In this document: positions 38,511 through 59,773 of the stretch, piece by piece
How the letters are laid out: each line of letters starts with the position of its first letter
Numbering within the stretch: position 1 is the first letter of the stretch
Assembly (NCBI GenBank): GCA_025963645.1
Contig: JAOQAI010000013.1
Location: 1 to 64,000, forward strand
Direction: 5' to 3'
Source of the DNA: Flaviaestuariibacter sp.
GTDB taxonomy: Bacteria; Bacteroidota; Bacteroidia; Chitinophagales; Chitinophagaceae
DNA: 64,000 bases
Translations under genes and position numbers: made by a program
The notes under the pieces: model-generated
The model's database searches: none
The model's input: only the letters and a program-made list of their open reading frames with translations
What the model was told of the DNA's origin: nothing

Positions 38511-38533
38511 TAAGTTGATACGTTGATTCATTG

Positions 38534-38571
38534 AAAGGTTGATAAGTTCTGCTTATTAACCTTTTCTTTTT
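38534..38571 (+). terminator. Rho-independent terminator of the DUF4290 gene
   Basis: AAGGTTGATAAG-TTCTG-CTTATTAACCTT (one G-U pair) followed by TTCTTTTT. Confidence 0.8.
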
Positions 38572-38601
38572 ATGGACTAAATTGCCGGCAGGGTAACGCT
38601 A

Positions 38602-38640
38602 ACCTATCAACTAATCAAGCATTCAACTTAATCAACTAAA
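38602..38640. repeat. TCAACT short-period repeat array ending 2 bp before murA
   Basis: CTATCAACTAATCAAGCATTCAACTTAATCAACTAAA. Confidence 0.8.
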
Positions 38641-44185: not shown

Positions 44186-44227
44186 AGTTGACAGAGTACA
44201 GTTGACATCCATCAACTGCCAACTGTC
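44186..44227. repeat. Heptad repeat, partly palindromic (AGTTGAC AGAGTAC AGTTGAC ATCCATC AACTGCC AACTGTC)
   Basis: 7-bp periodic units read directly; upstream of gmk. Confidence 0.7.
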
Positions 44228-44246
44228 ATCTTCCCCCTTCTCTCCC

Positions 44247-44275: not shown

Positions 44276-44860
44276 ATGACACTTGTAAATCCGGGTAAGA
44301 TCATCATTCTCACGGCGCCATCGGGTGCTGGCAAGACCAGCATTACCCGCCACCTCTTGGGCAAATACCCGGACAAGCTCGCCTTTTCCATCTCCGCCGC
44401 TACCCGTCAACCGAGGGGCACCGAAAAAAACGGCGTGGATTATTATTTCATGAGCGAGGAGGATTTTACTTACAAAATTCAGCACGAAGCATTTGTGGAG
44501 TGGGAGATGGTGTATGAAGGGAAGTATTATGGAACCCTGAAGTCAGAACTGGAGCGGCTTTGGGCGGTGGGCAAGGTGCCGCTATTGGATATTGATGTGA
44601 AAGGCGCGATTCATGTGCAACAGCAGTTCCCGGATACAACGCTTTCTCTTTTTATTGAGCCGCCTTCTATTGATGAATTGCACCGGCGCCTGACCGGTCG
44701 TGGCACCGAAAGTCCGGAGTCCTTGCAGGCACGAGTCAGCAAAGCGGAATACGAGCTTTCGTTCAAGCATTCCTTTCACCAGGTGATCGTGAATGAAAAC
44801 TTAGGTAAGGCTTGCGAAGAAGCGGAAGCGGCAGTGTTGAAGTTTATTGGGAGCGAGTAG
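44276..44860 (+). CDS. gmk: Guanylate kinase
   Basis: IILTAPSGAGKTSITRHLL, FSISAATRQPRGTEKNGVDYYF, EWEMVYEGKYYGTL. Confidence 0.97.
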   Translation: MTLVNPGKIIILTAPSGAGKTSITRHLLGKYPDKLAFSISAATRQPRGTEKNGVDYYFMSEEDFTYKIQHEAFVEWEMVYEGKYYGTLKSELERLWAVGKVPLLDIDVKGAIHVQQQFPDTTLSLFIEPPSIDELHRRLTGRGTESPESLQARVSKAEYELSFKHSFHQVIVNENLGKACEEAEAAVLKFIGSE

Positions 44861-44905
44861 TGGGAAGCGAGTAGCAAGTGGCGAGTAGCAAGTAGGCTTT
44901 GTGTG
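44853..44905. repeat. Left inverted heptad array of the four-helix-bundle element
   Basis: GCGAGTA GTGGGAA GCGAGTA GCAAGTG GCGAGTA GCAAGTA GGCTT; exact 14-bp register (44853, 44867, 44881). Confidence 0.9.
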
Positions 44906-44930
44906 CAATAGCTTTTTAGTAGCTTAGCTT

Positions 44931-45290
44931 ATGCTAGACTTGAGTCATAAGAAATTGATTGCCTGGCAAAAAGCAATGGCGTTTTTCCCGCCCCTTTATC
45001 AACTATGCACAAAACTTCCGAAGGAGGAGATGTACAATCTATCCAGTCAAATGAAACGGGCTGCACTTTCTATTTCTAATAATCTCGTCGAAGGCGCTTC
45101 CCGTAAATCCAAGCTTGAGAAAAATCGTTTCTTTGAAGTCGCCCGGTCATCTGCTGTTGAAATAGACAACTGCCTCACTGCTTGCTTAGCTTTACAGTAT
45201 TTTAAAATAGAACAGATATCTGCAATAAATGCTGCCTTACTAGAAATCTTTAAACTGATAACCGGCCTGATTGAGTCCAATAGAGACTAA
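44931..45290 (+). CDS. Four helix bundle protein (S23 rRNA-intervening-sequence / Avd-like, TIGR02436 type)
   Basis: LIAWQKAMAFFPPLYQLCTKLPKEEMYNLSSQMKRAALSISNNLVEGASRKSKLEKNRFFEVARSSAVEIDNCLTAC matches the family pattern. Confidence 0.93.
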   Translation: MLDLSHKKLIAWQKAMAFFPPLYQLCTKLPKEEMYNLSSQMKRAALSISNNLVEGASRKSKLEKNRFFEVARSSAVEIDNCLTACLALQYFKIEQISAINAALLEIFKLITGLIESNRD

Positions 45291-45334
45291 TTGCGCTAAG
45301 CCCTACTTGCCACTCGCCACTCGCCACTCGCTAT
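45291..45334. repeat. Right inverted heptad array of the four-helix-bundle element
   Basis: Reverse complement reads TAGCGAGTGGCGAGTGGCGAGTGGCAAGTAGGGCTTAGCGCAA, an imperfect inverse of the left array. Confidence 0.9.
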
Positions 45335-45354: not shown

Positions 45355-46608
45355 ATGGAAACTGTCTTTACCTGGTTCTTCGTCACCATTTTCATGATGG
45401 CCTTTTTTTCGGGTATCGAAATGGCCTTCTTCAGCGTCAACCGCTTTGGCGTGGAATTGAAGAAAAAACAAGGCCGCCCCGGGGCCCACATGCTCTCCCG
45501 CTTTATTCAGACCCCCGAAATATTTGTCAGCACGACGCTTATTGGATTCACCATTTCATTGGTGTGTTTCGTGTTGCTGTTTGGCGCCGTCACGCAACCC
45601 CTTTGGAACTTCGTAGGACTCCGTTCAGATACAGCTATACTGGTGCTGGACATTATCCTTGCCGCTTTCATAGTATTGGTGTTTGGCGAGTTTATTCCAC
45701 GGGCTATTTTCCGGGCTCACAGCAATGTGATTCTTTCCCGGCTGGTGTGGGTGGTCAACCTGTTTTATACACTCTTGCAACCTATCGCTTCGGCCTTTAT
45801 CGGGCTATCCAACTGGTTTTTAAAGTACGTGTTCGGTGTTCGGATGGACGACACCAAAGAAGCGTTTTTGCATACCGATTTCGATACACTTTTTCAGCAG
45901 CACAACGAGGACGAATACGAGCACAAAGACCTCAATACCGAGTTGTTTGAAAATGCGTTGGAACTGCCAAAGACCAAGATCCGCCAATGCCTTGTGCCTC
46001 GCAAAGAAATTATTGCGGTAGATCAAACCACCACGATAGAAGGTGTGCGGCAAAAGCTTGTGGAAACAAAGCTGAGCAAGCTCGTAGTGTTTGAGGGAAA
46101 CATCGATCACATTGTCGGTTATGTACACCAGTTAGACCTGTTCAAAAACCCACCCGATCTGCAAACGATCCTGTTGCCGATCCCGGCTATCCCCGAAAGC
46201 ATGAGCGCTGCTGATCTTATCACCAAGTTTACCAAGGAAGGCAAGAGCATTGCCTGGGTGGTGGATGAATTTGGCGGCACGGCCGGCATTGTTACCATGG
46301 AAGATGTGCTGGAAGAGATCTTTGGCGAGATACACGACGAATACGACAGCGAGGAGTTTGTAGAAAAACGCCTGGCAGAGAACGAGTATATTTTTTCGGG
46401 ACGGCTGGAACTGGACTACCTCTGTGACAAATACGATCTTTCTTTCCCTGAAGATGAAGAATCGGAAACCCTCTCCGGTTATATCATCAACCACCACGAA
46501 ACGATACCAAAGCAAAAAGAACGCATCATTATAGCCAACTACGAATTTGATATTTTGAATGTGGGCGATACGCGAATTGAGATGGTGAAACTGAAGATTT
46601 TAAAGTAG
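45355..46608 (+). CDS. CNNM/CorC-family (hemolysin-like) transporter
   Basis: N-terminal CNNM TMs; CBS domains; VDEFGGTAGIVTMEDVLEEIFGEIHDEYD; C-terminal CorC_HlyC. Confidence 0.93.
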   Translation: METVFTWFFVTIFMMAFFSGIEMAFFSVNRFGVELKKKQGRPGAHMLSRFIQTPEIFVSTTLIGFTISLVCFVLLFGAVTQPLWNFVGLRSDTAILVLDIILAAFIVLVFGEFIPRAIFRAHSNVILSRLVWVVNLFYTLLQPIASAFIGLSNWFLKYVFGVRMDDTKEAFLHTDFDTLFQQHNEDEYEHKDLNTELFENALELPKTKIRQCLVPRKEIIAVDQTTTIEGVRQKLVETKLSKLVVFEGNIDHIVGYVHQLDLFKNPPDLQTILLPIPAIPESMSAADLITKFTKEGKSIAWVVDEFGGTAGIVTMEDVLEEIFGEIHDEYDSEEFVEKRLAENEYIFSGRLELDYLCDKYDLSFPEDEESETLSGYIINHHETIPKQKERIIIANYEFDILNVGDTRIEMVKLKILK

Positions 46609-59686: not shown

Positions 59687-59703
59687 GCGCCTCTAAAAAA
59701 CCA

Positions 59704-59773
59704 GCTATTAGCCGTTAGCTGTGAGCCCTTGGCCTTTGGTTTTGCTCACAGCTCATAGCTTACAGCTCATAGC
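59704..59773. repeat. Inverted heptad repeat arrays (GCTATTA GCCGTTA GCTGTGA / GCTCACA GCTCATA GCTTACA GCTCATA)
   Basis: Two 7-bp periodic arrays; GCTGTGAGC (59718-59726) pairs with GCTCACAGC (59744-59752). Confidence 0.88.

Follow-up and report, generated by a model that had tools for sequence, protein, structure and literature searches.

The window, by which we mean the whole stretch of 64,000 nucleotides from Flaviaestuariibacter sp. analysed here, carries a compact unit of ~480 nt that lies between gmk and a gldE-like gene, outside any 23S rRNA gene. Inverted arrays of the heptad GCGAGTR flank its single ORF (44931–45290) on both sides, and smaller hairpins of related build lie elsewhere in the window:

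38511–38630, no strand assigned: related hairpin lacking an ORF, built from 8-mer units (AGTTGATA type) and lying between two plus-strand ORFs, from the paired-array scan.
44186–44230, no strand assigned: small ORF-less hairpin of AGTTGAC type a short way upstream of gmk, picked out by eye and below the scan threshold.
44276–44860, plus strand: left neighbour gmk (guanylate kinase), a host gene (PF00625).
44853–44894, plus strand: left arm of six tandem heptads (GCGAGTA, GTGGGAA, GCGAGTA, GCAAGTG, GCGAGTA, GCAAGTA), overlapping the gmk stop codon.
44895–44930, plus strand: inner left segment upstream of the ORF, in which weaker inverted similarity carries on.
44931–45290, plus strand: IVP / S23 four-helix-bundle ORF of 119 aa (PF05635, TIGR02436, AlphaFold2).
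45302–45332, minus strand: right arm, with heptads TACTTGC, CACTCGC, CACTCGC and CACTCGC at 45304–45331, whose reverse complement is three copies of GCGAGTG and one of GCAAGTA.
45355–46608, plus strand: right neighbour, a CNNM/CBS/CorC_HlyC protein (GldE-like) encoded by a host gene, from its profile match.
59703–59767, no strand assigned: related hairpin lacking an ORF, built from 7-mer units (AGCTRTKAGC type), from the paired-array scan.

Both arrays were found where an earlier note on this DNA had placed them, with an inverted match of 31 nt at 90% across a 405-nt loop. The left array does supply the stop codon of gmk, which ends at 44860, and the gap between the right array and the corC-like ATG at 45355, put at about 20 bp in that note, measures 23 bp. 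Folded as RNA, the whole unit is closed by its stem (MFE −147.9 kcal/mol, z −3.8, no shuffle equal), and the locus (L006) had no Rfam match.

The encoded protein belongs to the S23 / 23S_rRNA_IVP family, here called IVP (PF05635, 98.4 bits, 3.5e-28; TIGR02436, 5e-26). Its AlphaFold2 model has four helices (pLDDT 95.9) and matches best, among PDB structures, 2GSC (TM 0.89), with 2RLD at ~0.8. Avd of diversity-generating retroelements, to which the protein had been likened, shares the four-helix fold (8UB7 and 4DWL, TM about 0.77–0.79), but the analogy goes no further than the fold because no reverse transcriptase is needed, as described below, and the NCBIfam Avd model NF033474 matches weakly, far under its cut-off (27.3 bits against 80). 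IVP genes are under purifying selection (dN/dS 0.08–0.13, for comparisons where dS is unsaturated), so the protein does something useful, at least for the element. No catalytic residues for DNA joining were evident in it.

Arms are a general feature of the family. The window genome (63% complete) has 12 IVP members and, by eye, nearly all of them lie inside inverted tandem words, one private word each, such as a long CACTCAC array (L004), GTTTAAG (L007), AGTACGA (L009) and TAAAATG (L011). For 80 loci of relatives, the 180-bp flanks gave a best self-lag of 7 in 44 and 46 cases and of 8 in 15 and 12. Using ungapped scoring and one threshold throughout, we found arms in relatives at 94 of 118 IVP loci, in a broad sample at 49 of 78 and in non-Bacteroidota at 18 of 22, as against 3 of 503 similar-sized control ORFs and none of 196 loci with shuffled flanks. 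Arrays are thus rare beside unrelated genes, contrary to the equal frequency that the earlier note had named as a point against its proposal. A stricter threshold (IR ≥ 20 and shared periodicity) retained 56 of 118 and 32 of 78 loci, respectively, and no control ORF (0/503). At the common threshold, about one-fifth of IVP genes in relatives and about one-third in the broad sample are armless. The broad set covers Acidobacteriota, Planctomycetota, Nitrospirota, Geobacter, Thiobacillus, Clostridia, Fibrobacter, two CPR lineages and Methanophagales archaea. All ten plasmid IVP loci looked at, mostly cyanobacterial, have arms. For 20 non-Bacteroidota loci, Rfam covered the stems with no family and placed 0/20 in rRNA. 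One clear case was seen of a non-IVP small gene inside inverted 7-mer arrays (L103, 12649–13062, genome G004), and in genome G003 a one-sided array of about nine tandem TTGACGA copies lies directly upstream of gmk (L088).

The word is private to each element, usually of 7 nt, sometimes of 8 and rarely of 9. A fixed 7-nt signal is rejected, because element families have their own units, some of them 8 or 9 nt long. Left and right arms agree in unit length in 126 of 128 elements (97 are 7/7, 27 are 8/8, one is 9/9, one is 6/6 and two are discordant), a count that is favoured by the picking of arms for matching. G outnumbers C in the arm read towards the ORF in 86 of 94 and 42 of 49 elements (about 90%). 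Stop codons were rejected as a reason for the arrays, as 92 of 94 arms hold a stop triplet and shuffles give 91.8.

Arm and protein vary together. For pairs of elements at different junctions, arm-unit similarity is correlated with protein identity (Mantel rho 0.26, 0/500 permutations). The median arm match is 7 for pairs with less than 35% protein identity and 22 for those with more than 65%, and the share of pairs equal in unit length goes from ~60% to 97% between low and high identity. The closest kin of the window unit (L170 in genome G008 and L158 in G010) have AGCGAGT-type arms and occupy other sites. The two arms of one element match at 22, compared with 15 across elements of the same family, where again the arms were selected for matching. 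From this agreement, co-divergence and within-element match, it follows that the word drifts, both arms together and linked to the protein; the comparisons shown here indicate that arms and IVP protein travel and diverge together, which suggests that the protein may read its word.

Most hairpins have no ORF. A paired-array scan of sampled genome stretches found 51 hairpins in 1.4 Mb from five IVP-carrying genomes and 2 in 0.9 Mb from four IVP-less genomes (p 3e-9), a density about 16 times lower on the IVP-less side (n = 4 genomes); against the sole IVP-less genome of the genus, the counts are 51 and 1 (p 7e-5). Markov controls of the sampled stretches contained none. ORF-less arms are widespread in IVP-carrying genomes. 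Their resemblance to IVP arms is no closer within a genome than between genomes (mean rank 0.53, against 0.5 by chance, with an incomplete IVP set per genome), a failure that is perhaps due to the incomplete sample.

The arrays could be intergenic simple repeats born of slippage, their hairpins formed by chance or by terminator-like selection, with the IVP gene merely tolerating such sites. Many bacteria have an excess of heptameric repeats of this sort (cited in PMC4692102), and the lack of an ORF in most hairpins would fit. That reading is already disfavoured by the arm counts, as 80% of IVP genes in relatives are enclosed and 0.6% of control ORFs. The unit type also follows IVP identity across junctions, hairpins are nearly absent from IVP-less genomes, and homologous sites occur with or without whole units, which leaves slippage as the sole origin very unlikely.

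Comparison of homologous sites reveals occupied and empty forms. Across 17 same-genus genomes with gmk found, the gmk junction has the ORF only in the window genome; a short empty spacer is found in five, and ORF-less hairpins of other words stand behind gmk in four. None of the relatives examined had the ORF at the gmk–gldE junction without arrays, the other outcome that the earlier note had named as a point against its proposal. In genome G010, the gmk–gldE junction is empty and an element of the window unit's family sits beside the distal end of gldE. Nostoc plasmids resolve a site nearly to the base, with an occupied form TTCTA|AATCAGGAGTC...IVP...GGATTCTGA|TTATGC and an empty form TTCTAGGTTATGC; a second IVP family sits one gene beyond the occupied site, and ORF-less hairpins with identical CAGGAGT words lie one gene away. 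In Nostoc sp. N6 plasmid pNPM1 (L279, 1604–2168), an ORF-less heptad hairpin splits the IVP gene of another element; this gene is intact in two other loci (L264 and L275). This nested insertion, GGGAGAGCAG|element|ATAAAGC, has neither target duplication nor loss. Target-site repeats, lacking there, may be ATG or TTCTA at two other sites. The element of a Calothrix brevissima plasmid is missing from three homologous plasmids. Arms plus ORF are shown here, by these alignments, to form a discrete insertable unit. A phage origin was rejected, as no phage match was found.

These sites also bear on whether gene and stem might instead be an immobile cassette, kept by vertical descent for regulation or RNA processing, in which the hairpin separates co-transcribed genes and the protein is an RNA chaperone. 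Strong purifying selection on the ORF would suit such a role, as would certain orthologous IVP junctions that are kept across species. Against it, close homologues have empty sites, one common junction with closely similar flanks holds unrelated IVPs of 24% identity (L076 and L078), another holds IVP elements in opposite orientation (L020 and L073), and the Nostoc plasmid has its nested insertion. We regard an immobile cassette as highly improbable.

The elements have no obvious recombinase, and another enzyme could move the unit with IVP as an accessory, either a reverse transcriptase as in diversity-generating retroelements, given the shared Avd fold, or a REP-associated Y1 transposase, since such enzymes act on hairpins. 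RVT_1 is, however, absent from the nearly complete, IVP-rich genomes G003, G008, G010 and G013 and present in the IVP-less G006, G020 and G024; none was found in the window genome (G000, 63% complete). Both RVT_1 and Y1_Tnp are missing from G003, which is 100% complete and has 11 IVP copies, and no heptad arms flank the Y1_Tnp gene of L092. Either enzyme as a required helper is therefore rejected, and movement by an outside enzyme of these kinds seems unlikely overall, while help from other host enzymes (RecA, replication restart, ligase) is compatible with the data. At one locus (L041, G040:C24:2609-4667), a reverse transcriptase domain lies beside two IVP-family genes that have no good heptad arms; this is possibly a diversity-generating retroelement with Avd-like proteins.

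The family is best known from rRNA. Intervening sequences (IVSs) of 23S rRNA in Leptospira, Coxiella and Azospirillum share with the window unit the protein family and the layout of a stem-loop with the ORF in the loop, and the Coxiella IVS is of similar size (428 nt, compared with ~480 nt). It has GACAGAT heptameric repeats upstream of the ORF, and excision by RNase III cuts at the first of the bordering repeats, with loss of the loop (PMC4990558); its S23 protein is reported to be probably not produced in vivo (PMC4990558). A mobile origin of rRNA IVSs, with the ORF as mobility component, has been put forward as a hypothesis only (Ralph and McClelland 1993, as cited in PMC4990558). Azospirillum lipoferum 4B has the helix 45 IVS in only one of two 23S copies compared (L266 and L269): without it, h45 reads GCGGAT[GTGATCTTATGATCAC]GTGGTAG, and another copy, which has heptad arms and an IVP ORF, reads GCGGAT[TCAGAGG...CTTCTGA]GTGGTAG. 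Because these inverted heptad arms are like those of the window unit, we place rRNA IVSs and the window unit in one class. Unlike rRNA IVSs, the window unit sits between protein genes, as do nearly all other units; they occur many per genome, with diverse words, and have ORF-less companions. As the armed architecture surrounds most IVP genes across bacteria and archaea, a widespread mobile element appears to have one of its outlets in rRNA IVSs.

We therefore read the window unit, with a probability of roughly 70%, as a mobile element of the IVS class that lives outside rRNA, the heptad stem being its cis part and the four-helix protein its trans part. The proposal of an IVS-like or minimal transposable unit outside rRNA, made in the earlier note, gains support from the family-wide arms, the empty sites, the armed rRNA IVS and the co-divergence of arm and protein. 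The cis part would be the long stem built from two inverted arrays of a 7-nt (sometimes 8–9-nt) word, and the trans part the S23/IVP protein encoded in the loop, predicted by homology to 2GSC to form a five-fold ring of four-helix bundles. Each protein may recognise its own family's repeat hairpin, in RNA or in extruded DNA, and promote the spread of that hairpin, including in trans that of ORF-less copies. Slippage together with arm-templated correction could keep the arms alike while the word drifts. By analogy with rRNA IVSs, RNase III would cut the stem out of transcripts, mRNAs included, which would explain tolerance in tight operons (accB–accC-like, cas6–cas4).

More tentatively, and with odds that we put clearly short of even, IVP could be the specificity factor of a transposition without transposase or reverse transcriptase of known families, reading the word of its own stem so that protein and word co-evolve. 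If so, one system would have produced ribosomal IVSs, many of the heptameric repeats of bacteria and the S23 genes called 'CRISPR-associated'. The data tie together formerly separate questions, namely the origin of rRNA IVSs, the function of S23/IVP and the abundance of heptamers, in one element class spanning Bacteroidota, cyanobacteria, proteobacteria, CPR and archaea, with one small protein and a stem word private to each family. Matched protein–hairpin pairs, occupied and empty sites and ORF-less derivatives now offer testable substrates.

Other small mobile elements are built differently. Insertion sequences and MITEs have a fixed terminal inverted repeat common to their copies, whereas IVP arms are inverted tandem words that differ by element. 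The ORF-less copies resemble REP/RAYT, REPINs and MITEs as small hairpins spread with help of a gene elsewhere in the genome, but need no Y1 transposase. The cyanobacterial tRNA-Leu intron has heptamer hairpins, and Elhai and colleagues are said to have described, in 2008, small dispersed repeats and tandem heptamers of Nostoc. Among the freely accessible journal papers searched, none was found to link S23/IVP genes generally to heptad arms.

Heptameric repeats of Xanthomonas (GGGAATC) and Nostoc are tandem heptads like the arms in the window, and the arrays often form convergent pairs close together, with 70 cases reported in X. campestris (Rehm et al. 2015, PMC4692102). That study found generally no link of heptamers to mobile elements, and S23 is absent from its main text; the tandem arrays are here, by contrast, the arms of IVP units. 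In a gammaproteobacterium with GGGAATC arrays (L371), a GGGAATC-armed IVP gene lies between accB-like and accC-like genes, named from the flanking sequence.

PF05635 genes are listed among CRISPR-Cas-associated functions in a survey of cas loci (PMC3936711). The cas6–cas4 IVP elements on plasmids of Pseudanabaena (L259) and Anabaena sp. 90 (L265) both have heptad arms, which makes insertion the simpler reading, and cas loci may carry IVP genes as passengers. In Flavobacterium columnare, guanylate kinase is followed by a four-helix-bundle gene and then nadD, in what is listed as a phage region (PMC5524665, Table 5); this gene is probably another IVP insertion beside gmk.
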